Virus record (IMG/VR): IMGVR_UViG_3300027313_000035
Coordinates: 1 to 28,397 of that record
Source of the DNA: a virus
DNA: 28,397 bases
Direction: 5' to 3' (one strand)
Shown here: piece by piece, positions 10,767-27,357 of the stretch
How positions within the stretch are numbered: position 1 is the first letter of the stretch
How the letters are laid out: each line of letters begins with the position of its first letter
Translations under genes and position numbers: made by a program
Notes under the pieces: generated by a model
Database searches by the model: none
What the model saw: only the letters and a program-made list of their open reading frames with translations
Told to the model about the DNA's origin: nothing

Positions 10767-13700
10767 TTATTTTCTCGCTTTCTCCGGCAAACGTCCATAC
10801 ACGGTATTCGTAAAAATTTCGTTGGGGTAGTTCTCTGCCGCCCAGAGAATGGCCTGCTGGTAGTGCCTGCACTTGATCACGGAGTTCGCATCCTGCGCCG
10901 CCCAATGCCTTTGCGTGCGAATCGACTTCGACGGCGGAAGGTTGGGCGGGTCATTCGACTTCTTGCGCAGAGAGAGAAAAGAGCTCGACGGCGTCTGCGT
11001 CGAGAGGATCTCGTCGAACAAAAGCGCCACCGTCAGGGGCGTCGCGCCGGCGATCATCTTCTCCTCGGTCACCACAAACTGCACCCCCGCGGTCATCCCC
11101 GGCTGCGCCAGAACCACACTGGCGATGTAGGCGTTCGCGAGGTACGTGGCCCCGTTGTCGGCATTGGTCGAGAGATCGCGCTTCAGGATGGGATTGTTGG
11201 TCACCGAAGGACCGATCACCAGCGCCTTCTTGCCCGGCGAAGTCTCGATACTGGCGATGGCCTTCACCTTGCCCGGCGCGGCGATCACCGCGGGCAGACT
11301 CCAGACCAGGCCGCTCTCGGGCGCGGCCGTCGCCGCCATCCTGTACCACTGCTGCGTCCCATCGGCCACGTAGAGCGCCATGTCGCGCGACTTGCCCTGG
11401 TGCCAGGCGAGGTAGACCGTGGCCGGATCGTAGTAGTCGTCGAAGATATCCCCGATGGGGAAGCCGACCTCGGTCTCGCCGGCACCGGGATCCATCGAGA
11501 CCACCTGGTTCGACGTCAGCATCACGTAGGCCGTCGAGCCGTTGACGGTGAAGGCATCCTGCGACATGATCCCCACGCCCGCCTGGAAATTCACCAAGTA
11601 GAAGGGCGAGATGGGATTGCCGGCGGCATCGTAGGTGCCCTGGCCCAGGAGCACCCAGGTATCGCTCATGGTGAAGACGATCAGGCCAATCGAGGTGGGC
11701 CAGCAGGCGACGCCGGTCGAAGGCAACTCAAACACGTTATCCGGCGACATGGACTCATTGCCGGATCCGGTGGTGGTGTCGGGCCCGTTCGTATAGACCA
11801 GCTTGTTGCCCACGAAACCCCAGATCCGGTTCAGGTAGTAGCAGGAGGGAATGAAGGCCGGCGGGGGCACGCTGTTGTCGGAGAAGTTGGTGCCCGGCCC
11901 GCCCCCCAGCTGCGGCGCAATCAGCGTGACGCCGGTGATGGCAGTATCCGGTACTGTATCGGTATATACCCAGGTTTGACCGGCCCCGGGATTGGGGATG
12001 GTGGCGACCTCGAAGAAGCTCGATCCCCCCGCCTTGGTGCGCCAGATGACGATCTCGTCGACCTGCGGATCCCCGGAGCCCACGCCCTGAACCACCGGGA
12101 CATTGCCTGGGGTCACCACAATGGGCTGAGAGGGCGGCGACATATTCGAAATGTGCCCGGTCGCCGAGTTCCCATAGGAGTAGCCGTAGATCCAGGGCAG
12201 GGTGGCGGATCCCGCGCTGGCCCCGCCCTTGTTCGACCAGTTGGCGGTGTTGTCGACGGTGATCGCGCCCAGCGTGGTCTGCCAGGTGGGCGCGGCCGCG
12301 CCGCTCTTGCCCAGAGCCTGGATGTGCTCCTGGTTATAGTTCGAATCGAGGATCGTCGAGGCCGTCGAGACCTTGGAGGTAGCGCCGATAGTCGCCCAGG
12401 TCGACGGCGTGCCCAGGTTGGTCCAGGCGGCGGTGCCGTCCTGGGTGGTGGTATTGAGGCCGTTGACCCAGGCCGGCTGGTTCGCACCCGTGGTCCCGGC
12501 CTGGCTGCACTGGAAGAGGGAAGTGACGGTGACCGCGACCTGCTGATAGACCGTCTGCGGCTGGTAGGTGTAGCCATTCCACACCAGGGTGGTCTGCGGC
12601 ACAGTGACGTAATAGGTATAGGTCGCAACCACCAGCTGGCCCACGGTGACGGCCGTCGACGCCGTCCAGGTGCCGGGGCCCATGTTCTGCCACTGCGCCC
12701 AGGGTGGCCCTCCAGAGCCGCCGCTCTCTGTGGTAATGCCGCCCAGAACCGTGCTCCAGCTGGGCTGCGAATTTCCCAATCCACCGCTGGTGATCAGCTT
12801 CTCAAGATTGCCGTTCGAATCCTGAATCACAAACAGCGGCGCGTACCAGGTATTCGCCGCCCAGTTGGGATAGATCGAAGGCGCAGCGGTCTGGGTGACG
12901 GTGGGCTGATTGGTGGGGCCCTGTATGCCCCAGCCGGTCACCGCCGATCCCTTGTTGACCCACTGCTGACCGCCGTCCTGGGTGACCGCGCCAGGCGTCG
13001 TCGCGAAAACCGGCGGGGTTGCGCCGGTCACGCCGTTGCCGGTCGTCACGGTGCCGGTCTCGACCGAGTAAACCGTCGCAGGAGGATTGCCCATCACCGT
13101 GCGGGAAATGGTTTGCGTCTGGAGAGGAGATTCGACCTGGACAATGAGTCCCGCTCCGTTCAGCGAGGGAACCGTGGTAAAGCCTGCACAGGTAAGGCTT
13201 ACGTTGTTCGAAATGTTGAGCGGCGTGAGCGGCGAAAAAAACAGCTTGATCAGCTTGTTGTAGCCGCCAGGCGGCGCACTGATGCTGTCGATCTCGATGT
13301 TGGCCATGTTCGCGATCTGCGCGCCCACCGCTTCCTGAATGTTGTTGTTCGAATCGATGATGAACTGGCCCTGGCTATACGCGGTATTGGCCTGCCAGGC
13401 CTGTTTCGAGGTCGTCCACTTGCCGGTCTCGACGCCGTCGCCCCAGAACAACTGGTTGCCCACCCCCACAAAGCTGGTGCGCCCCGCCGCCGGATCCTTG
13501 GTCTGCAGGATCAGGTTGGTGGAGGGGCCGGTCACGTCGCGCACCGTGCCCTGCGTCGATCCCGTGGCCGGATCCACACTGGCCATCAGGTGGATCACTT
13601 CGCCGGCGGGCCCGAAGGCGCGAAATTCGTAGAAGCGGTTAATGGGCGGAAAGAGTTGCGAATTGTAAACCGAAGAGCCAGGCCTGCGCCCCAGGGTGAG

Positions 13701-13907
13701 ACGCGAGGTGATCTCGGCATTGAGGCCACCGATCAGCCGGTCATAGCGCGAGGCCGCATAGAAATGCTGATAGAGGTAGGGAACCGCGCCGGGCCCCAGT
13801 GGATTGCCCTGGGTCCACAGGCCGGTGAAGAATTCGTTGGTATGGAGAGGCGCAGCTGCACTGGGCTGGATCTGCGCGCCTGCGGTCATGAGCGGAGATT
13901 CTGGCAT
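10767..13907 (-). CDS. Tail hub / virion structural protein with four internal repeat modules
   Basis: This is the largest gene, 1046 residues from MPESPLM. The ATG at 13907 shares a base with the preceding stop (TGATG), and GAGGG lies upstream. The longer frame to 14117 only overlaps the previous gene. Residues 1-165 form a beta-rich N-terminal domain (FYAASRYDRLIGGL, FVGVGNQLFWGDG). Residues 171-561 hold four diverged modules of about 50-90 residues with the pattern W-x-x-x-T-x-Y, D-x-N-x-N, P-x-W and T-x-D-x-x-x-x-W-x-x-x-G. The C-terminal part (DEIVIWRTKAGGSS, IWGFVGNKLVYTNGPD) has blade-like repeats recalling P22 gp10 or other tail-hub propellers. Likely it closes the portal vertex or forms the tail nozzle. 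The exact family is uncertain. Confidence 0.75.
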   Translation of the reverse strand: MPESPLMTAGAQIQPSAAAPLHTNEFFTGLWTQGNPLGPGAVPYLYQHFYAASRYDRLIGGLNAEITSRLTLGRRPGSSVYNSQLFPPINRFYEFRAFGPAGEVIHLMASVDPATGSTQGTVRDVTGPSTNLILQTKDPAAGRTSFVGVGNQLFWGDGVETGKWTTSKQAWQANTAYSQGQFIIDSNNNIQEAVGAQIANMANIEIDSISAPPGGYNKLIKLFFSPLTPLNISNNVSLTCAGFTTVPSLNGAGLIVQVESPLQTQTISRTVMGNPPATVYSVETGTVTTGNGVTGATPPVFATTPGAVTQDGGQQWVNKGSAVTGWGIQGPTNQPTVTQTAAPSIYPNWAANTWYAPLFVIQDSNGNLEKLITSGGLGNSQPSWSTVLGGITTESGGSGGPPWAQWQNMGPGTWTASTAVTVGQLVVATYTYYVTVPQTTLVWNGYTYQPQTVYQQVAVTVTSLFQCSQAGTTGANQPAWVNGLNTTTQDGTAAWTNLGTPSTWATIGATSKVSTASTILDSNYNQEHIQALGKSGAAAPTWQTTLGAITVDNTANWSNKGGASAGSATLPWIYGYSYGNSATGHISNMSPPSQPIVVTPGNVPVVQGVGSGDPQVDEIVIWRTKAGGSSFFEVATIPNPGAGQTWVYTDTVPDTAITGVTLIAPQLGGGPGTNFSDNSVPPPAFIPSCYYLNRIWGFVGNKLVYTNGPDTTTGSGNESMSPDNVFELPSTGVACWPTSIGLIVFTMSDTWVLLGQGTYDAAGNPISPFYLVNFQAGVGIMSQDAFTVNGSTAYVMLTSNQVVSMDPGAGETEVGFPIGDIFDDYYDPATVYLAWHQGKSRDMALYVADGTQQWYRMAATAAPESGLVWSLPAVIAAPGKVKAIASIETSPGKKALVIGPSVTNNPILKRDLSTNADNGATYLANAYIASVVLAQPGMTAGVQFVVTEEKMIAGATPLTVALLFDEILSTQTPSSSFLSLRKKSNDPPNLPPSKSIRTQRHWAAQDANSVIKCRHYQQAILWAAENYPNEIFTNTVYGRLPEKARK

Positions 13908-14611
13908 CAGACGGCCCTCGCTCTGTACCGCTCCTGCGTCTCCAGCTGCGTCGCCTGCACCTGGCTCATCACGCGCATCCAGTTGCCGATGAAAATGCTG
14001 CGCTCGAGATCCGTCAGACCTCCCTGCTGCGCCAGCACGCTCGAGATGAATTTGGCGTTGTAGCCGGTGAAGCGCGCGTCGTTGCCGATCAGGCTCATCA
14101 TGGCCAGAAATCCCCACATGGGGATGTAGGCCAGAGCGTCGGGTACCGGGGCCCAGGTATAGGCCAGCGAGAGCAGCTGCGGCGCGTTGCGCTGAAAGAT
14201 CAGGGTGTGGTTGTAGCTCTGATCCGGCGAAGGCGAGGTGCGGAAGGTGATGTTGCCCATGCCGTCATCGATCAGGGGCGCGCAGTACTGCGGCCGCGCG
14301 GCGCTCTGATCGGGATGCAGCACCAGCTGCACACTCAGTTCCCACGATTTGCCGCCGCTCGCGGGCTGCACTACGCCGCCCTCGAGAAAGCCGAAGCTGA
14401 ACAGGCCCGTGACCTGGTTGTCCTGCTGCGAGCTCGTATAGGAGGTCGTAGAGCGGTTCCAGGGCCATGCCAGCGGGGGATTGAGAATCGTCTGCAGAAC
14501 CAGGTTGGCCGAAGAGAGCGCAGGCTCCATGCCCAGGATCTCCACGGGCTGCATTTCGATGAAGGCCTTGGCCCAATTCACCGTATTTTGCAGGGTCACT
14601 GAGGACGACAC
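13907..14611 (-). CDS. Head-tail adaptor-like virion protein, short paralog
   Basis: This 234-residue protein is a clear paralog of the one at 15677-16687. Both have an EMQPV motif near residue 20, a W-x-W-N-R motif near residue 50, a QQD motif soon after and an (F/W)LEG motif near residues 75-88. The start is GTG at 14611, directly after the TGA of the small basic gene; no better ATG is nearby. The C-terminal half is helical (FISSVLAQQGGLTDLERSIFIGNWMRVM) and unlike the paralog's insert. Its place between capsid and tail hub suggests a head-tail connector or tail accessory protein. The role is inferred from position. Confidence 0.75.
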   Translation of the reverse strand: MSSSVTLQNTVNWAKAFIEMQPVEILGMEPALSSANLVLQTILNPPLAWPWNRSTTSYTSSQQDNQVTGLFSFGFLEGGVVQPASGGKSWELSVQLVLHPDQSAARPQYCAPLIDDGMGNITFRTSPSPDQSYNHTLIFQRNAPQLLSLAYTWAPVPDALAYIPMWGFLAMMSLIGNDARFTGYNAKFISSVLAQQGGLTDLERSIFIGNWMRVMSQVQATQLETQERYRARAV

Positions 14612-14791
14612 TCACTTCGCCTTTCTCTTGCGCGCAGCCTTCTTCGCGGCCTTTCTGCGCCTGGTCGAGAGCACTGCGGCCTGCATCTGTTTTTCGGCTT
14701 TCGCCTTTCCTGATTTGGCAGCAGTGCGCTTGAAGGTTCCTCCGTGTCTGAACTCATGGAACATCTGTTTCTTCGTCCCCTTGGGGGGCAT
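14612..14791 (-). CDS. Small basic protein (59 residues)
   Basis: This short gene starts at the ATG at 14791 and encodes MPPKGTKKQMFHEFRHGG through to a C-terminal KKAARKRKAK. It is preceded by a near-perfect Shine-Dalgarno, GGAGGTGA, and its TGA abuts the GTG of the next virion gene. Composition is Lys/Arg/Ala-rich. The N-terminal half (KQMFHEFRHG) is reminiscent of small phage proteins of the DUF6496 type, a tentative match by eye. It probably binds DNA or another virion protein. The small basic protein at 4063-4266 has a similar composition. Confidence 0.75.
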   Translation of the reverse strand: MPPKGTKKQMFHEFRHGGTFKRTAAKSGKAKAEKQMQAAVLSTRRRKAAKKAARKRKAK

Positions 14792-14795
14792 AGAA

Positions 14796-14803
14796 TCACC
14801 TCC
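14796..14803 (-). promoter_or_regulatory. Strong Shine-Dalgarno site for the 59-residue basic protein
   Basis: GGAGGTGA on the minus strand lies four bases before the ATG at 14791. It is one of the best ribosome-binding sites in the window. It also lies just upstream of the plus-strand endonuclease start at 14808, so the two divergent genes are separated by only 16 bases. Confidence 0.8.
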
Positions 14804-14807
14804 ATAA

Positions 14808-15701
14808 ATGCAGAAAATAAAGCGGCCTTATACATGCGAGTGGTGTGCGCGAAGGTTTCAAAAAAGAAACCACAGCACAAGAAAGCCGCGTTTTTGTTCT
14901 CAGGAATGCTCTAAGGAGAGCGAGAGAGCGAAACGTTCTAAACATACCTGCGAGAGATGTGGAAATGTCTTTTTTAGGAGGAACCGCAAAACGGATCCAC
15001 TCCGATTTTGTTCTCTGGATTGTTACTATGCATCGCGCCGGGATTTGAGCTACAACACTAATCCGATTCATACCTGCCAGGTATGCAAGGAAAAATTTGC
15101 GAGGCGATTCAGAGCTTCGAAACCTCCAAAGTTCTGTTCTCCTGAATGTCATTCCATCGCGATGACGAAGAGGGTCGAACTTGTTTGCGAAAGATGCGGC
15201 CAGAGATTTCTGAAAAAGCGCCACGGAAAAGACGAGAAAGATCCGCGATTTTGCAGTCGAAAATGCTTCAGAGCTTCTGCCTCTCTTGAAACGAAACAAC
15301 GCACCCGGCCAATAAGAAAATCTCTTCAACGTCCTTGCAAACTTTGTGGACAGTTCACTCTCGTGGATCCTTACACGCATTTCTGTTCTCGAGGCTGCTC
15401 GACCTTGAGCAGCTTCCTTGATGGCAGGGGAGACTACCGAATTCGTGGATTTATTCTCACCGTGCAGCGCAAAGACAAGCTGTGCTGCGAAGAGTGTGGT
15501 AGCGAGAATCCACATCACCTGATGGTTCATCATCGCGATGAGAACCGACAAAATAATGCTGACGAAAATCTCGAGACCTTGTGTGCGAATTGTCATTACG
15601 AAGTTCACTGGAAAAGCGCCGTGGATCGTGCTGATCGCGTAGAACGTGCCTTGGAAGCGGTCAGAATTATGCATATCTACCTTCCCGGCCAGACGGCATA
15701 G
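14808..15701 (+). CDS. HNH endonuclease with five N-terminal zinc fingers, probably a free-standing homing endonuclease
   Basis: This is the only plus-strand gene, 297 residues. The C-terminal domain (residues 226-268) is a zinc-type HNH nuclease: CEECG, then MVHHRDENRQNN, ENLETLC and ANCHYEVHW, with Cys227/Cys230 and Cys259/Cys262 as likely metal ligands and His241/242 as the catalytic candidates. Before it lie five repeated fingers with the plan C-x2-C...F-C-S-x2-C, at Cys10-34, 48-72, 90-114, 127-153 and 177-197. They probably bind DNA and set specificity. The DNA is AT-richer than its neighbours: 28 of 60 bases are G/C in 15061-15120, against 46 of 60 in 16021-16080. No Shine-Dalgarno site precedes the ATG. 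A TAGAAT at 14791-14796 could be a -10 box giving a very short leader, weakly supported. It overlaps the convergent gene end at 15677-15701. The long minus-strand frame across it is a shadow. Confidence 0.88.
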   Translation: MQKIKRPYTCEWCARRFQKRNHSTRKPRFCSQECSKESERAKRSKHTCERCGNVFFRRNRKTDPLRFCSLDCYYASRRDLSYNTNPIHTCQVCKEKFARRFRASKPPKFCSPECHSIAMTKRVELVCERCGQRFLKKRHGKDEKDPRFCSRKCFRASASLETKQRTRPIRKSLQRPCKLCGQFTLVDPYTHFCSRGCSTLSSFLDGRGDYRIRGFILTVQRKDKLCCEECGSENPHHLMVHHRDENRQNNADENLETLCANCHYEVHWKSAVDRADRVERALEAVRIMHIYLPGQTA

Positions 15702-16687
15702 CCCGCATATGGCCACGCAGGGCCTAAAATGTCGGTGCCGCCCTGCGGCGCGACTACGCTACGGTCAGGCGTAAATCCGCTATTGTCGATCTCTCTATCG
15801 GCCTGCTTCATCGTGGCCTCGATGGCCGCGAGCCAGCTTTGGTGCATAGCTGGATAGAGTCCGCGGATTTGCGGATTAGGCGAAAGCCGGTAACAGTAAA
15901 CCGAGAAACCAGTTCGAAAATGATTGGCATAGTCGTCAGGGATCGGATCGATGAACTGCTGCATCGAGGTGAAGGGCGGCGGCGCTTTCTTCTGTCCGAT
16001 CAGATTGACCTGGTAGACCACCGCCTGCTGCGGCGGCATGGGCAGAATGCGGAAGCCCTGCGAACGCGGGCCGGCCACCGTCCAGACACAGCTGCCGTCG
16101 TTCACCGTAACTCCCTCGGCCGAGTTCGCGGCCGCTGCTGGAGCCGTGGCCCCGGTCGTACCGTAGGTCGTCAAAACCAGAATGTTGCCATTGGCGTCCA
16201 GAATGTTCGCCAAAGGGTTGGTCGGCGCGATCAACGCACCCAGCGGCTGCGTGTATTTCACATTGGGGCCGGGCCAGGTGCCCTGCAGCAGCTGATCGTT
16301 GTAGTGCCAGGTGACCTTGGCCGGCGGGTTGCCCGAGATGGAGGAGGCAGGCAGATCGCGCACCACCTCCATCGCGTAGGTGGGTTTGGGGAGGGCAGTG
16401 TTGTTGATGTCGACCCAGTACGCGCCTTCCAGCCACCCGATGGGCGCGGGAAAGCTCGAGCCGATCTGCGCGTAATCCTGCTGCCAGCTGATCGTGTAGA
16501 ACGGCGGCAGCTTCATCCGGTTCCACTTCCAGTTGAAGCGTTCCGAGATCAGATCGCACATGGTGTCGGTGGCCATCGAGAGGGCAGAGTTCACGCCAAA
16601 GCCAGAGGCAGGGATCACCGGCTGCATCTCGCCCATGCTGCAAACAACGTCGACGATGGACTGTATGGTGGTGCTCGAATTTCCCAT
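15677..16687 (-). CDS. Head-tail adaptor-like virion protein, long paralog with an inserted repeat module
   Basis: This 336-residue protein shares EMQPV (residues 20-24), WKWNR (53-57), ISWQQD (66-71) and WLEG (85-88) with the shorter paralog at 13907-14611. Residues about 152-206 (ILDANGNILVLTTYGTTGAT, later VNDGSCVWTVAG) look like one copy of the module that is repeated four times in the tail hub at 10767-13907. The C-terminal part (FIDPIPDDYANHFRTGFSVYCYRL, then AIEATMKQADREID) resembles connector-type proteins in style. The ATG at 16687 lies nine bases after the previous stop. Likely a head-tail connector or tail accessory protein. The family name is uncertain. Confidence 0.75.
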   Translation of the reverse strand: MGNSSTTIQSIVDVVCSMGEMQPVIPASGFGVNSALSMATDTMCDLISERFNWKWNRMKLPPFYTISWQQDYAQIGSSFPAPIGWLEGAYWVDINNTALPKPTYAMEVVRDLPASSISGNPPAKVTWHYNDQLLQGTWPGPNVKYTQPLGALIAPTNPLANILDANGNILVLTTYGTTGATAPAAAANSAEGVTVNDGSCVWTVAGPRSQGFRILPMPPQQAVVYQVNLIGQKKAPPPFTSMQQFIDPIPDDYANHFRTGFSVYCYRLSPNPQIRGLYPAMHQSWLAAIEATMKQADREIDNSGFTPDRSVVAPQGGTDILGPAWPYAGYAVWPGR

Positions 16688-18462: not shown

Positions 18463-19476
18463 TTAAGTGATCAGCGTCGGTGCGTCGATATAACGCACGC
18501 GGCCTGTGGTGTCGGGGACAACTCCGGTGGCAAAGTTAAAGTTGTAGGCCGCAGATCCACCGATCATCATTGCGGGATCAGAGACTGAGGCATCGTCGTA
18601 ACGCTTCACGATGACCTTCAGATTTCTCCAGTCGCCGTCGCCGAGATTGGTGTTTTCCTTGGCCCCCATGCTGATGGTGATCACGCCGTTCTCGCCGTAG
18701 ATGTAGGTGCGGAACGCGGTGACGCCCGAGTGGCCCAGGTAATTCGCGGTCTGGGTGACGACGGTCGTCTCATAGAAACGAACGCCGCTCCAGTCCATCA
18801 CCGTGACGTACTCGCCCTTGCCGCCGGGGAGCTCCTTGAGAAGGTCGGTGCCCTCGACGCTGCGCTTCAGGATGTCGGTGATGCCGTTGTTCGACGCGTC
18901 GTTCAACGCATCGCCCCAGGCGAATCCACACACCAGGCCGCAGAAGTTGCCCGCTTCCATCGGCTTCACATTGCGTTGGCGAAGGGAAGCGACGGCGGTG
19001 GTGATGTTCGTTTTGTTGAACGGGACGTTGTAAGCATTCTGCTCATACACGCTCGAATCAACGTTGACCAGGGCGTCGGTGGTGTTCTTGATGAGATTCG
19101 CCACTGTGAGCGCGCACTGGTATGCGAGCTCCTTCGATCCGTTCTCAAGAGCCGGATCGATGGCCAGCTGCATGGAGAAACGCGAGTAGTTGAGGTAATC
19201 GGCGTAGTTCCCAATGACGATTTTGTCAGTGAGAATGCTGATGGTCTCGCCGGATTCGACCGTTCCTTCAGCGGCCTGGCTAAGGTCAGGACCAAACGGA
19301 ACGTACTCAAAGAGGTTCAGCGTATTGCCTGAGTTTTCAGGCAGAGGCCTGCGCTCGACGCACCGATAGTGCGGCGTCTCCGCTTTGAGATTCTCGATAA
19401 AATTCTTGTCGTAATAGTTGACCTGAGTCTGTGTCAGATTCGAGGTCAAGTTTGATGCTGGTGAGAATCCTGCCAT
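18463..19476 (-). CDS. Major capsid protein, N4-gp56-like family
   Basis: This protein of about 337 residues forms the icosahedral shell. The sequence follows the N4-gp56 major capsid pattern: NYYDKNFIENL near the N-terminus, then RRPLPENSGNTLNLFEYVPF, a segment ending in L-S-Q-A-A-E-G-T-V-E-S-G, and GNYADYLNYSRF. A central helix (LIKNTTDALVNVDSS) and a late strand (VTAFRTYIYGENGVITISMG) complete the fold. The ATG at 19476 is preferred over the GTG at 19482, because GGGAG lies seven bases upstream. It follows the scaffold-like gene, as in most head modules. The family assignment is by pattern recognition and fairly secure. Confidence 0.85.
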   Translation of the reverse strand: MAGFSPASNLTSNLTQTQVNYYDKNFIENLKAETPHYRCVERRPLPENSGNTLNLFEYVPFGPDLSQAAEGTVESGETISILTDKIVIGNYADYLNYSRFSMQLAIDPALENGSKELAYQCALTVANLIKNTTDALVNVDSSVYEQNAYNVPFNKTNITTAVASLRQRNVKPMEAGNFCGLVCGFAWGDALNDASNNGITDILKRSVEGTDLLKELPGGKGEYVTVMDWSGVRFYETTVVTQTANYLGHSGVTAFRTYIYGENGVITISMGAKENTNLGDGDWRNLKVIVKRYDDASVSDPAMMIGGSAAYNFNFATGVVPDTTGRVRYIDAPTLIT

Positions 19477-19515
19477 AAGCACGCTCCCGTCTCGGGGCTG
19501 CTATATGGCGGGAAC

Positions 19516-21193: not shown

Positions 21194-21362
21194 GGCTGTC
21201 CTGCCTTGCATTGATGAGAAGTTTTCGTGCTACATCTGACTGACACTTGTCCAGCTGATCGAGCAGTTCCACGGAAAGATGCTTGCGCTGTTTCGACGTC
21301 AGGTGGAATAGCTCTGCATAATACGAACGCCGTTCATAGAGTGGTCTGCCTGGTTGTTCCAT
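21156..21362 (-). CDS. Small basic hypothetical protein next to the portal gene
   Basis: This 68-residue protein (MEQPGRPLYERRSYY onward) starts at the ATG at 21362, which shares a base with the portal TAA (TAATG). It has charged helices (KQRKHLSVELLDQLDKCQSD) and no recognised motif. Coupling to the portal suggests a head-assembly role. Confidence 0.55.
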   Translation of the reverse strand: MEQPGRPLYERRSYYAELFHLTSKQRKHLSVELLDQLDKCQSDVARKLLINARQDSHEFRRNDNVDAR

Positions 21363-23509
21363 TACGGTGACCCCGGTGCGAACACACTTTGGTTGATGGT
21401 TTCTCTATCCCAACGGCGCTCATCCCACAGCGCCGCCTCGTCAGAGGCCTTGCCCATCAGCGACTGCGCCAGCTTGGCTTCGTTCTGCTGGTCAATTTCT
21501 GCGGATTTGGCTTGGTGCCGCGCGCCGATGGCCGCGATCTGGCCCTGGATTTTTGAGTGCGCCTGACTTGCCTGCATGAAGTTTTGCCGCTCCTGCGGCG
21601 TCATGGGCCGGATTAATTCTCTTGAGTTGCGCCACTCTGTAACCTCCATATACATCGCGAGAAGCTCGCGTATATCCACGGTATAGCCCATGGCAGTAAG
21701 GGCCTGGATGATCTGCGGGTTCTCGAAAACCTGCATCAGCATCGGCAAGGCCTGCGCCATGGCTTTCTTCGCGGCCAGGTGGGCCCCGGCCAGGCATTCA
21801 AAACGATCCTCGGATTCGTAGAAGTTCTGGGCGTCGAGCTCAAAGGCCGCGCCCAGTTCGTCGCCCAGCGTGTCGCGGATCTCCTTGGGCGTCAGCTTGT
21901 TTTTCACGAACCAGTCGAGGAGCTCGATCACCGGGATCAGGATGCCCTTCACAAAGTGCCCCACGGGCCCCTGGATGCGTCCTGCGTTGGCCGAGATGAT
22001 TCCCCCCGCTCCGGTGGCCGTGCGGGCCGCAGAGGAGCCGCCACGGCCCGGCAATGAGCCCTGTGTGAAGGCCTCGTCTGCGCCGGTCGTCGTCTGGTCG
22101 TTCTGAACCGATTCCTGCAGGACCGCGAAGACGTCCTTCGGGATCTGCGGCGGCTCGATGATGCCGAAGACATCGCGCACGCTCTGATTGCCATGCACAT
22201 CCACGTCCACGATCCCGCCCAGCCGCGAGCGGATCTGCTGGGTGGGCGCGTTCGCGCCGCGATTCCTGGCATACATGGGATTGCAGGCGTAGGACAACAG
22301 GTCGAGCATGGCGTCCACCAGGCCTTTTTCAATCCTCTGCGTGCTGCCGGAAAGCCGCCCGGCCCCAAGTCCCCAGGCCGCATTGGGGATGTTCCAGAAA
22401 TTCGCGGAGAAGAAGTTGATGCAGGGCATGCCGTGCTCTTCTTTCCTGATCAGTACGCCCCGGTCGCTGCCATCGGGGCAGAGCACGGCATAGACGTAGG
22501 TATCATCGGTGCGCTCGAGCATCTGGATGGGCCGCTCGGCGGGCGATTCGCTGCCCGGGATCTCTTCGTTCTGCGCGTGGTGGATCGAATAGTTCTGACC
22601 GCCCAGGTTCTCCATCACCATCGAGGGCTGGCCCGCCGCGTTGTCTTCGTGCGCGAAAAAGTACTCCTTGAGCTCTTCCTCGCTGGGAATGTCGTAGCCG
22701 CCTACCTGATTGCCTTCCTCGTCGAACAGTCTCTGCTCGCGCAGCTTGTTGAGGTCCGTCCAGGTCGGGTAGGTGACGTGGACGACGTACTTCGCGGAGT
22801 CATGCAAAGAGTTCGCAACATTCCAAGTAGGGTCCACCAGAATACTGCCCAGTTCACACATCTCAAGAAAAAGCTTCTGCTCGGTGACCTCCTGCTCAGT
22901 GACGACGAGTTCATCGCTCTCCTTGGTGTGGGCCACGATCTCGCCGCCCAGCGGAATCTTGATGCGTATCGGTGCGGCGCGCGGGGCCCTCACTTTCTTT
23001 TTTCTGGTGACTTTCTCCCAGCCGGCCTTCACGATCACCGTGCCGAAAGTGGTCATGTATTCCAGAGACCTCTCAGATACATCTTCAAACTTGGCCTTAT
23101 CCAGCTGGGCCCCATAGAGCGCGGTTTTCGCGCGGGCAGTGTTCTGCGACGTCGCCGGGCGCGGCCGAATGACAAATGGCGGTGTCTCGTAAAAGATTCC
23201 TCCTTTCATCGCGGGCACCAGACTGTTCACAGTGCTGGCGACACGGAATCGAGAGATGTTCGCGCGTGCTACCGTGCTGCCTTCGAAGGATTGGTTGGTG
23301 CGAGGCGACTGGAAGAGCGTGTCGGCCTCGCGCCAGTAGAGGTTCCACTGTTTCTGATCGAGCCAGGTGCGCGCACGGCGGGTGTCCTGAATCGTCAGCT
23401 GCACGGCGGCGTCGTCGGTGTACTTCGGATCGAGCAGCGGGCCCTGCGGCTCGATGTCATCGCGTTCGATGACGGCCGATCCGTTGAGCGGGTTCATCAG
23501 CGTGCCCAC
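21362..23509 (-). CDS. Portal protein, P22-type
   Basis: This 715-residue protein forms the dodecameric portal through which DNA enters and leaves the head. Size is close to P22 gp1. Portal-like signs include the N-terminal region (RTWLDQKQWNLYWREADTL), the central wing/stem region (FSANFWNIPNAAWGLGAGRL, GLVDAMLDLLSYACNPMY) and a long helical C-terminus (RQNFMQASQAHSKIQGQIAAIGARHQAKSAEI) like a barrel or crown. The start is GTG at 23509 or ATG at 23497; neither has a clear Shine-Dalgarno site. It lies downstream of the terminase with three small genes between. Confidence 0.85.
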   Translation of the reverse strand: MGTLMNPLNGSAVIERDDIEPQGPLLDPKYTDDAAVQLTIQDTRRARTWLDQKQWNLYWREADTLFQSPRTNQSFEGSTVARANISRFRVASTVNSLVPAMKGGIFYETPPFVIRPRPATSQNTARAKTALYGAQLDKAKFEDVSERSLEYMTTFGTVIVKAGWEKVTRKKKVRAPRAAPIRIKIPLGGEIVAHTKESDELVVTEQEVTEQKLFLEMCELGSILVDPTWNVANSLHDSAKYVVHVTYPTWTDLNKLREQRLFDEEGNQVGGYDIPSEEELKEYFFAHEDNAAGQPSMVMENLGGQNYSIHHAQNEEIPGSESPAERPIQMLERTDDTYVYAVLCPDGSDRGVLIRKEEHGMPCINFFSANFWNIPNAAWGLGAGRLSGSTQRIEKGLVDAMLDLLSYACNPMYARNRGANAPTQQIRSRLGGIVDVDVHGNQSVRDVFGIIEPPQIPKDVFAVLQESVQNDQTTTGADEAFTQGSLPGRGGSSAARTATGAGGIISANAGRIQGPVGHFVKGILIPVIELLDWFVKNKLTPKEIRDTLGDELGAAFELDAQNFYESEDRFECLAGAHLAAKKAMAQALPMLMQVFENPQIIQALTAMGYTVDIRELLAMYMEVTEWRNSRELIRPMTPQERQNFMQASQAHSKIQGQIAAIGARHQAKSAEIDQQNEAKLAQSLMGKASDEAALWDERRWDRETINQSVFAPGSP

Positions 23510-23989: not shown

Positions 23990-24227
23990 CTGGCTTGTAA
24001 GAAACCTCGGGTTGTGCGGTTGCCAGCAGATCTAGCAATTCACCAATCGTTGTCGTCTCGCCGTGTATGCATTCTTCCCATTTTTCGGTTGCATCCGGGC
24101 CCAGAGAATATTCCACCAGCACTCCGATCAGCGCATTGCGCTGCAGGGGAGACATTCTTAGCTGGAATCTCAGCCGCTTAAACCCGGCATCATTTCGCTC
24201 AAGTCGCTGTGCTGTATCGGCACCCAT
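23961..24227 (-). CDS. Small hypothetical protein overlapping the terminase end
   Basis: Up to 88 residues. The ATG at 24227 has GGAGG four bases upstream but lies 58 bases inside the terminase gene, where that site also encodes part of its Glu run. The ATG at 24155 (MSPLQRNALIGVLVEY), after the terminase stop, gives a more natural-looking 64-residue protein but lacks a Shine-Dalgarno site. The core is acidic and helical. No function is recognised. Confidence 0.5.
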   Translation of the reverse strand: MGADTAQRLERNDAGFKRLRFQLRMSPLQRNALIGVLVEYSLGPDATEKWEECIHGETTTIGELLDLLATAQPEVSYKPDERQNRTIA

Positions 24228-25828
24228 TCTTCCTCCGGTTCAGGAACCGGATCCGGTTCCTTGTATTTACCGCGCCCGTAGACGCGGTCGTAGGCGTCCT
24301 GGTTGACGTAATTCGAGAAGGCCTCTTCCTCGGCCGGTTCGAAGCCCGCCGCCGCAATGCTTGCGGGCAGCTTGGCCGCGATCCGCGAGATAACACTAGC
24401 CACCTCGTACTCCTCCACCAGCCCAAAATGGTGCAGCTGGCGAAAGACCTCTTGCACATTTGAGATCCCATCGGCAAAAAGCAAACGACCGGCGAGCAGA
24501 TGCGGCTCCGCAGATTTGATCGCCAGGGCTCGTGCTGTATCGTCTTGCAGGAACTCGCCCCAGCTGATATCGAGACGCCATTCCTGCTCGAGCGCCTCGT
24601 TGCGAATATGCGCCGCCATCGAATGTGCCCCCGGGGTATCTTCGATTTCGACGCGGTGTGCATCCCAGTGTTTGCACATCTTCACGATCCGCTGGGAGAG
24701 CGAGGTCGGAGTGAATTGGCCTCTGACGACCTCCACAATCGTCATGCGGCCACCGTTCTCGATGCCCACGGCACCGGCTGCATATTTGCAATCGGCGTAC
24801 TCCATGCGCCAGCCGACATGGACCTGGCCATCATGTTCATTCACATCCTCGCTCACCCTGGCGGCATTCAGTCGCTCCATGGGGAAGGTGGACTTGAAAT
24901 TTCCCTCGGCGACATTCATGTATTGAGTCCAGAAGCTGGGCTCATCGAGCATCTTTTCTTCGCGCAGGAAGGCCCAGCTGATCTGTTCGGGGAATTGCAG
25001 AATCACGTCGTCCTCGGTGAGTTCGTCGTCCTCGATCTTGATCGCGTGCTGCTTGCGTATATACGCAGGCTTCCAATAAACAATACTCTCCTCCCCGGCT
25101 TTGGCAATCATGTCCCCGTAAAGATCCATGGGACCGTAGCGGGTGCCGGTGAGATCGAGCAGGCCTTCCTCGCCCAGCATTTTTAAATTGATGTAAAAAT
25201 TCTGGCGAACTTTGCGGAGCGCAAATGCGGTCTGAGAGTTGCGATTGTCCTGTACGTCTTCGGACTTGATCACGTCCGGGTGCCAACCGGAGAGCGACTG
25301 TTCGATGCTCACCCCTTTGACAGTGGGATCGCGGCGGTAGCGGGTGCGGGCCGGGGTGGTGAACTCGCCAGCCTTCGGTGGTTTGGTCAGGACGTGTTCG
25401 GGGAAACAGAGATGGAGCACCTTCTTCGGCTCACCTGGCAGGCACACAAAGTGCGAGGCGCACTCGGCGACAAAGGCGTCGGCCAGCGGCGAGTCGGGCG
25501 AGTTCGACGCCGTCATGGGCATGACCGCAACGTCAGGAAAGCCCAGGATCCACTGCACGGTGTCGACGATGTTGAGGGTGGTTTTGTAGGTCTTGCGTGG
25601 AAGGAAGACCAGGCGGCGGCGCTTCCGGGTCTGCTGCGAGAAAGGTTTGCTGGGATCCTTCTTCACGAAGACGTCGCACACCGGCTGATGCCAGAGCTCA
25701 GTGAGCTTGCGGTAGCCCAGGCAGTACTTGGCGAGGAAGAACAGATCCGTCTGCATGCGCCAGCGCAGGAAATCGCGATAGTCGTCATCCTCGGGGATCC
25801 GCGCCACATCAATGACGTTCTCGTCCAT
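24170..25828 (-). CDS. terL: Large terminase subunit
   Basis: This 552-residue ATPase/nuclease packages phage DNA into the procapsid through the portal. The ATG at 25828 shares a base with the methyltransferase stop (TGATG), with GGAGG seven bases upstream, so the longer frame to 26098 is rejected. The ATPase domain has a Walker A-like loop at residues 76-84 (LPRKTYKTT), a Walker B-like region near 181-194 (GWHPDVIKSEDVQD) and a coupling motif near 226-237 (LTGTRYGPMDLY). The nuclease domain has candidate acidic residues at Asp346 and Glu396 (VEIEDTPG) and near EEYEV. Walker A lacks the standard G-x4-G-K-T/S, which is known for some terminase groups. No small terminase is recognised in the window. 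Confidence 0.9.
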   Translation of the reverse strand: MDENVIDVARIPEDDDYRDFLRWRMQTDLFFLAKYCLGYRKLTELWHQPVCDVFVKKDPSKPFSQQTRKRRRLVFLPRKTYKTTLNIVDTVQWILGFPDVAVMPMTASNSPDSPLADAFVAECASHFVCLPGEPKKVLHLCFPEHVLTKPPKAGEFTTPARTRYRRDPTVKGVSIEQSLSGWHPDVIKSEDVQDNRNSQTAFALRKVRQNFYINLKMLGEEGLLDLTGTRYGPMDLYGDMIAKAGEESIVYWKPAYIRKQHAIKIEDDELTEDDVILQFPEQISWAFLREEKMLDEPSFWTQYMNVAEGNFKSTFPMERLNAARVSEDVNEHDGQVHVGWRMEYADCKYAAGAVGIENGGRMTIVEVVRGQFTPTSLSQRIVKMCKHWDAHRVEIEDTPGAHSMAAHIRNEALEQEWRLDISWGEFLQDDTARALAIKSAEPHLLAGRLLFADGISNVQEVFRQLHHFGLVEEYEVASVISRIAAKLPASIAAAGFEPAEEEAFSNYVNQDAYDRVYGRGKYKEPDPVPEPEEEWVPIQHSDLSEMMPGLSG

Positions 25829-27357
25829 CACAATGCCTCCACCATCGCGATTCTCTGGCCCAGCCAGCGCATCACCGGCACCGCCATGGAGTTGCCCAGC
25901 GCCTTGTAGCGCGGCCCGTCCGGCGTCCTGGCGCCGATCCTGGTGTAATGGTCGGGGAAGCCCTGAAGGCGCTCGCATTCGAGCGGAGTAAGCCGCCTGA
26001 CCGCCATGCCGCTGCGGATTCCCTGCTGGATGTTGCGCGAGTCGTTGGGAACCTGTGCGTCCAGCTCCCACGCGAAGCCGTTGGCCTGCTCTGAGCATGT
26101 GAAGGCGACCGCCGGGTAGCCCTGTCCCGGCTTGCCGCCGCCCACTTTCAGCGAACCCACCGTATCGTTGAGGCTCAATTCCGCACGTTGATTCTCATGA
26201 ATCGCGACCGCTGGCTTCACGCCGCCGCCGGATCGGGAGAGAGCTTTCAGAGGCCCGATCACGTCTTCGCTGCCATTCAGTTCCGTGTCGAGACTGGCCA
26301 CCAGATTGTGGGTACGGAAATTGTTCCTGCCTTCATGGGTGTAGGTTCGGGCCTCGTTGGCCGAAATCGGATCCGCAGTTTCCTGTGCGATGTGGGCAAT
26401 CATGACGGCGGTGGTGGAGGAGTTCTCCACGCTGCCCGGCACTCGCGCCCGCAATGCACCGGCGATGTCGGTGAAGCTGGCCGTCCGCGCCGTCTTGTCA
26501 GTGCCGTGAATGGTCACGCCGACCAGGTTGTAGCACTCGTCCCCGGCGGGCCCGCCGCTCTGCTTCGACCACTTCGCTGAGACCGCGCCCGAGATCAGGC
26601 CGCCGTCGTCGCCAGCCTCGTCGTCGCAGGGGATGACGCAATCCTGACCTCGCGTTTCCCCGGCTCTGCTGAAGCCTCTCCCACTTGCTCCAATGCCTGG
26701 CGCAACATCCCAGGCAATTCTTTGCCGCGTTTCTCGGCGCGGCGCAAAATTCCGCGACAGGCTCGACCGCTCAAGTAGTACTGCTGCGGCACGCCGCCAG
26801 TCTCCAAAATATCCGACAACGAAGACACGGCGGCGGCGCTGGGGAACTCCGAAATACTGAGCATCAAGGACTCGGTAGGCGAGGCCCCAGGCATCTGCGC
26901 CGCCAGGAATGATTCCGAAGCCGGCCCATCCTCCGGCGGGGACGCGAACAGATCGGCCTGCAAGGGTGGAGAGAAAGAGAGCGAAGGCCCAGCCGCCGTC
27001 GCTGGAGAGTATGCCGGGGACGTTCTCCCACACCAGCCATCGGGTGCGTGCGCGGGAAGCCAGGCGGTGAGCCAGTCGAGCAAATTCGATGGTGAGCTGG
27101 CCACGCTCTCCATCCAGTCCCTTTCGGAGACCGGCGACTGAGAAATCCTGGCAAGGTGTTCCTCCGACCAGAAGGTCGGCTGCAACGCCGCCATCGATTG
27201 CGGTGAAGTCTCCAGCATTCGGAACCTCCGGGTAGCGATGCCTGAGTACCGCGCAGGGGAACTTCTCGATCTCCGCAAACAGGACCGGCGTCCATCCCAG
27301 CGGGTGCCAGGCAACCGTGGCGGCTTCAATGCCGCTGCAAATGCTTACGTAGTCCAT
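25828..27357 (-). CDS. DNA (cytosine-5) methyltransferase
   Basis: This 509-residue enzyme transfers a methyl group from S-adenosylmethionine to C5 of cytosine in DNA. The conserved motifs are present in order: I (SICSGIEAATVAW), IV with the catalytic Cys (GGTPCQDFS), VI (WENVPG), VIII (QRRRRVF), IX (RRLTPLECERLQGFPD) and X (YKALGNSMAVPVM). The region between motifs VIII and IX, about 270 residues, is the target-recognition domain; the target site cannot be read from sequence. The ATG at 27357 overlaps the previous stop (TGATG); a GTG at 27360 is an alternative. It is coupled to the terminase by another TGATG. No restriction enzyme gene is seen. It probably protects phage DNA from host restriction. 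Confidence 0.93.
   Translation of the reverse strand: MDYVSICSGIEAATVAWHPLGWTPVLFAEIEKFPCAVLRHRYPEVPNAGDFTAIDGGVAADLLVGGTPCQDFSVAGLRKGLDGERGQLTIEFARLAHRLASRARTRWLVWENVPGILSSDGGWAFALFLSTLAGRSVRVPAGGWAGFGIIPGGADAWGLAYRVLDAQYFGVPQRRRRVFVVGYFGDWRRAAAVLLERSSLSRNFAPRRETRQRIAWDVAPGIGASGRGFSRAGETRGQDCVIPCDDEAGDDGGLISGAVSAKWSKQSGGPAGDECYNLVGVTIHGTDKTARTASFTDIAGALRARVPGSVENSSTTAVMIAHIAQETADPISANEARTYTHEGRNNFRTHNLVASLDTELNGSEDVIGPLKALSRSGGGVKPAVAIHENQRAELSLNDTVGSLKVGGGKPGQGYPAVAFTCSEQANGFAWELDAQVPNDSRNIQQGIRSGMAVRRLTPLECERLQGFPDHYTRIGARTPDGPRYKALGNSMAVPVMRWLGQRIAMVEAL

Follow-up and report, generated by a model that had tools for sequence, protein, structure and literature searches.

The viral DNA analysed here (the window; 28,397 nt, positions 1-28,397 of IMG/VR record IMGVR_UViG_3300027313_000035) carries a gene that probably encodes a free-standing HNH homing endonuclease, with a treble-clef array that would recognise the 5' end of an adjoining small gene, and which would move together with a diverged copy of that small gene. 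Comparison of occupied and empty loci suggests that this insertion very probably spreads the HNH gene and an altered small gene between soil phages, entering each time at the start of that gene.

An HNH nuclease with five zinc-finger-like modules

The HNH gene (Table 1) is an open reading frame throughout. Its product belongs to the HNH superfamily, having the HNH motif, zinc-type CxxC pairs and a match to PF01844 at residues 227-267 that exceeds the Pfam cut-off (22.6 vs 21.4 bits), and it also matches phrog_1271 in the PHROGs collection (E 1e-23). The catalytic and zinc residues are invariant across seven homologues whose identity to the window protein is 32-49%.

Table 1. Features of the HNH locus in the window.
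Feature	Positions	Strand	Remarks
HNH endonuclease with five zinc-finger-like modules	14808..15701	+	297 aa; antisense within virion operon
Module 1, aa 10-34	14835..14909	+	CxxC...FCSxxC; motif scan
Module 2, aa 48-72	14949..15023	+	motif scan; invariant Cys in alignment
Module 3, aa 90-114	15075..15149	+	motif scan; alignment of homologues
Module 4, aa 127-153	15186..15266	+	motif scan; alignment of homologues
Module 5, aa 177-197	15336..15398	+	motif scan; alignment of homologues
HNH nuclease domain, aa 227-267	15486..15608	+	PF01844; VHHxD...N...NLETLCANCH invariant
Gene A, left flank of insertion	15677..16687	-	virion operon, 336 aa; homologues in relatives
3' end of gene A (last 20 codons), tail altered	15677..15736	-	overlaps HNH 3' end by 25 nt
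Small basic gene, MPPKGTKK...	14612..14791	-	59 aa; positional counterpart of DUF6496/phrog_2423 gene
Gene B, right flank past small gene	13907..14611	-	virion operon, 234 aa; homologues in relatives

The original prediction of five C-x2-C...FCS-x2-C repeats ahead of a zinc-type HNH domain was borne out by the module positions, by both family matches and by shuffling: shuffled versions of the protein (n = 2000) contained at most one module each, compared with five in the real sequence. Each module is predicted to form a hairpin followed by a helix that begins at CSxxC, the order found in treble clefs. The best module-sized similarities, both weak, were to the FCS finger of L3MBTL2 (2w0t) and to YacG. 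By sequence and predicted secondary structure, the modules look like treble clefs of the FCS/YacG type. The AlphaFold2 model, based on seven homologues, reached a pLDDT of 72 and a pTM of 0.37, so that the packing of the modules in it is not reliable, and a fold search with the whole model returned no match at E < 0.001.

HNH genes with the same finger plan were found, including seven close loci. These relatives carry two, three, four or five modules, which puts the window protein at the top of the observed range; examples with two to four are encoded by Halogranum virus HGTV-1, Sinorhizobium phage NV1.1.1 and Gordonia phage Clown. A further viral scan added no more finger-array HNH members, and a genome scan yielded only a Rhizobium finger match. 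The variation in module number agrees with modular DNA recognition by the predicted zinc modules.

The HNH gene has a GC content of 47.9% (48% at third codon positions, GC3), compared with 61.0% for gene A (GC3 78%) and 62.7% for gene B (GC3 85%), in agreement with the earlier observation that it is AT-richer than its neighbours; this foreign composition counts in favour of homing. Between HNH homologues, most substitutions fall on the third codon position of the plus-strand reading. The minus-strand ORF opposite the gene (14796-15716) was rejected as a real gene: no protein family matches it credibly, and the substitutions favour the plus reading. All other window genes with homologues, as far as tested, lie on the minus strand, including those identified by PHROGs as terminase (24170-26098), portal (21362-23509) and major head protein (18463-19482). 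The claim that the HNH gene is the only one on the plus strand holds for these genes and is not extended to every plus-strand ORF; the ORF at 10863-14063 (plus) was discarded as the shadow of a better-conserved minus-strand gene. No promoter-like site and no clear Shine-Dalgarno sequence were found upstream of the HNH gene. An Rfam search gave no intron match at this locus, and the gene is antisense to an intact neighbouring ORF; carriage by an intron or intein was rejected on these grounds.

Patchy occurrence at a single junction

The distribution of the gene was analysed in 19 distinct phages retrieved by gene A (A identity at least 59%), many of them represented by fragmentary records. An HNH homologue, always antisense, is present at the junction between gene A and the small gene in four of the 19: the window, L006 (= L055), L034 (= L056) and L035 (= L063), with five, five, five and four modules, respectively. 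In the other 15, no HNH homologue was detected at the junction or anywhere in their records, many of which are fragments. The gene is thus not fixed among relatives and, being absent from 15 of them, is not needed for growth.

The HNH genes do not follow the phylogeny of their flanks. L006 and L034 are sisters by gene A (87.8% identity) and gene B (94.9%), yet their HNH proteins are only 46.5% identical, whereas those of L006 and L035 share 69.9%. A grouping of L006 with L035 is rejected by the gene A data (AU p 2e-5) and a grouping of L006 with L034 by the HNH data (p 0.014); HNH presence and absence require at least three state changes on the A tree and likewise on the B tree. Nucleotide identity between L006 and L034 is 84% ahead of the last 20 codons of gene A and 54% within them; it rises again where the small gene ends, reaching 92-97% in gene B. 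This profile indicates that the A tail, the HNH gene and the small gene were exchanged as one block.

An exact empty/occupied pair in a related family

For the window itself, no empty relative of near-identical sequence turned up; the clearest insertion comes from a related family, in which L140 is an HNH-less near-twin of the phage that carries L042. The empty L140 and the occupied L042, L136, L138 and L139 are 96.6-100% identical up to exactly nucleotide 28 of the small gene (ATGCCATTGAAGAAGGGAAAAAGCAAGA), and in the occupied alleles the HNH stop codon abuts this joint. Beyond the HNH gene lies a complete, divergent second small gene, which starts MPLAKGKS... where the native gene has MPLKKGKS...; from the 3' end of the small gene onward the alleles match again, at 91% identity over 3.9 kb. 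The native start is left in the occupied allele as a short remnant, MPLKKGKSKING*. L136, L138 and L139 therefore represent clean insertions relative to a near-identical empty allele, and L042 compared with L140 shows a displaced native gene end next to a carried divergent copy. L039 has the same layout as L042. What moves in these phages appears to be the HNH gene accompanied by a recoded target-gene copy of its own, that is, homing with a rescue copy.

In the window and its close relatives, the insertion point lies just after the stop codon of gene A, a few nucleotides before the native small-gene start, and in L039 and L042 it lies 21-28 nt after that start. On this view, both sets of insertions fall in one narrow stretch. 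We infer from the relatives that the window's own insertion took the same route. The suggestion that the gene had recently arrived as a homing-type element is supported by the presence/absence polymorphism at one site, by trees that conflict with those of the flanking genes, by the lack of intron or intein carriage, and by this exact pair in a relative.

The small gene and its start

At all seven distinct close finger-array HNH loci (the window, L006, L034, L035, L038, L039 and L042), the HNH gene is in antisense orientation and immediately precedes a small basic gene, in most cases of DUF6496/phrog_2423 type; three of them (L038, L039 and L042) encode three-module HNH proteins in unrelated low-GC phages. 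Profile HMMs place the adjoining small genes of L039 and L042 in phrog_2423/DUF6496 and those of L006 and L035 in phrog_2423. The small gene of the window, taken alone, reaches neither the DUF6496 nor the phrog_2423 model, and it resembles that of the HNH-less L051. From its position and the related loci, it is the probable target and co-transferred rescue gene. The start MPL[KR]KG is kept in one of seven HNH carriers (L006, which has the canonical start) compared with nine of 16 other phages (p 0.089), so that recoding of this start in carriers (MPLAKG, MPPKGT, MPLKPG) is at most suggestive. No paper on DUF6496 was found in the literature searched.

Duplication and alteration of the gene A tail

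L006 and L035 carry the last 24 nt of gene A (TACAAYGTNTGGCCNGGGAGGTAA) twice, the second time on the other side of the HNH gene. The duplicate matches the degenerate A tail at 20 of 20 positions, compared with at most 15 in every other gap. When aligned to the junction of the HNH-less L054, it scores 49 and 54, with shuffle maxima of 25 and 30. Either copy may be the native one. No second copy was visible in the window or in L034. Comparison of a phage's own left tail with its own right flank was abandoned as a duplication signal, since it stayed at shuffle level even in L006 and L035; the copies there have diverged, and the signal appears against the tails of HNH-less relatives. In many HNH-less relatives (compare window positions 14785-14800), the last codons of gene A, for example GGG AGG TAA, resemble a Shine-Dalgarno sequence of the small gene; an insertion there must therefore bring its own copy. 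The last 24 nt of gene A are likely to double as this ribosome-binding sequence.

The window's A tail is altered as well (PYAGYAVWPGR vs the usual PYLYNVWPGR), with 49-58% identity to L051 and L052 over the last 20 codons compared with 76% in the gene body. Altered tails occur in three of four carriers and in two of 14 HNH-less phages (Fisher p 0.044); since the latter two, L057 and L059, lack the HNH gene, an altered tail is a weak mark of the element, and its use as a group mark was given up. An initial reading, in which the element targets and replaces the tail of gene A in the manner of mitochondrial C-terminal hybrids, was dropped because the joint in L039, L042 and L140 is at the start of the small gene.

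Proposed mechanism and alternative explanations

We propose that the module array recognises a conserved stretch in which the DUF6496/phrog_2423-type small gene begins (ATGCCNCTNAARAARGG...), just downstream of gene A. The modules would presumably read the target, and their number (two to five in relatives) would set its length. In a mixed infection, the HNH enzyme would cut the HNH-less allele in this region, and repair from the HNH-bearing genome would copy in the antisense HNH gene together with the donor's complete, diverged small gene; the tail of the donor's gene A would come along in the window clade. The incoming small-gene copy would keep the reading frames working, while displacement of the native start and loss of the original site would make the insertion tolerated and prevent re-cutting, with the recoded starts of the carriers acting as immunity. 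From sequence comparisons we infer that the enzyme cleaves DNA, where its target lies, that the modules bind zinc and DNA, that recoding gives immunity, and how repair proceeds. A broader version, which we offer tentatively and hold to be possible, is a natural "home-and-rescue" drive, in which a modular zinc-array HNH enzyme, its module count matched to the target, would attack the start of the conserved small DUF6496/phrog_2423 gene, travel with a cleavage-resistant copy of it, and cross between unrelated phage lineages.

The main rival to homing is a passive one. Ordinary phage recombination would have dropped the HNH gene, as one of many accessory genes, into a hotspot that tolerates insertions ahead of the small gene, without any cutting by the enzyme of its own site. 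The A-B junction of wider relatives does hold other cargo without duplications, namely endonuclease VII, phage lysozyme, histidine phosphatase, trypsin-like proteins and a nucleoside deoxyribosyltransferase-like protein (L117 5178-5663; L057 5002-5469; L099 5060-5680; L101 5167-5913; L077 5001-5423). We regard this explanation as unlikely: the other junction cargo tested showed no duplicated gene end (shuffle-level scores for own A tail vs gap), members of the HNH family adjoin the start of a like small gene even where the phages differ in neighbouring genes and GC content, and the L042/L140 joint is exact, with the HNH stop codon placed at it.

HNH enzymes encoded near terminases help packaging in HK97-like phages (PMC10448857), and the window enzyme could accordingly be a packaging or host-DNA-degrading nuclease kept for the benefit of the phage. 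Its gene, however, lies in the head-tail region approximately 8.5 kb from the large terminase gene and is missing in most close relatives, which makes such a role improbable. That the protein is a mere nuclease look-alike with repeats, for example a regulator or anti-defence protein, is hardly credible given the invariant HNH catalytic and zinc residues, even though the FCS-finger and YacG similarities of the modules are weak and nuclease activity is predicted from sequence.

Comparison with known systems

In T4-like phages, the seg and mob genes for free-standing homing endonucleases (intronless homing) are intergenic and present or absent between conserved genes (PMC2988022, PMC6083498), as is the window family. 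They move by cutting a neighbouring gene and co-converting its flanks, and in T4 they share one common transcriptional orientation (PMC2988022). In contrast, all seven genes analysed here are antisense, several lie between duplicated gene ends, and they encode arrays of three to five modules; the passages of PMC2988022 consulted do not describe a second copy of the target gene. The closest match in logic to an HNH gene with a second small gene is provided by fungal mitochondrial mORFs (Allomyces atp6; Glomus atp6, atp9, cox2 and nad3 hybrids), where an endonuclease gene near a gene end brings a divergent end and the displaced native end matches uninvaded relatives (PMC3630166). However, mORFs encode LAGLIDADG or GIY-YIG enzymes in mitochondria and carry a C-terminal piece, whereas the phage loci combine an antisense HNH gene with a whole small gene.

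A combination of HNH and zinc modules is likewise found in phrog_1271 and related phage families and in the hidden HNH of ShiLan, which has two predicted zinc fingers and lies in an alternative frame (PMC11855218); the present family differs in having up to five modules and a tie to the small-gene start. Nuclease genes and HEG islands also mark recombination borders near phage structural genes (PMC10448857). The window family resembles them in placing a nuclease at such an exchange border, but it is confined to one site and one kind of small gene, with an exact joint.

The system joins an unusually long FCS-type zinc array on an HNH enzyme to a probable target gene common to unrelated phages and to a second copy of that gene carried by the element, for which there is an exact empty/occupied pair; this combination was not found for phages in the literature searched. 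It becomes possible to test in vitro how the array recognises its target, whether recoding confers immunity, and how the element spreads between phages. The element would be a natural counterpart to synthetic homing drives with a rescue gene, and gives a hint as to why the start of DUF6496/phrog_2423-type genes varies.

Additional observations

Several related loci showed further features. In Gordonia phage Clown (NC_055867; L033 1258-2385), a 375-aa ORF lies in another frame inside the terminase gene and encodes an HNH domain as well as four zinc modules. The terminase gene, annotated only as such, carries intein-like splicing motifs (CLSGDT...VLVHNC), apparently with the out-of-frame HNH gene within the intein. 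Enterococcus phage Sw5 (L144 1198-1983) has an HNH gene like the three-module type between its ribonucleotide reductase genes, which are a classical homing context. Gene A of L020 and L081 (L020 6001-7320) contains approximately 100 extra in-frame codons in mid-gene compared with aligned relatives. At the A-B junction of L080 (4999-5775), a gene in sense direction encodes a Cys-rich protein of 258 aa that has no Pfam match but contains CxxC pairs and a pattern resembling HNH.
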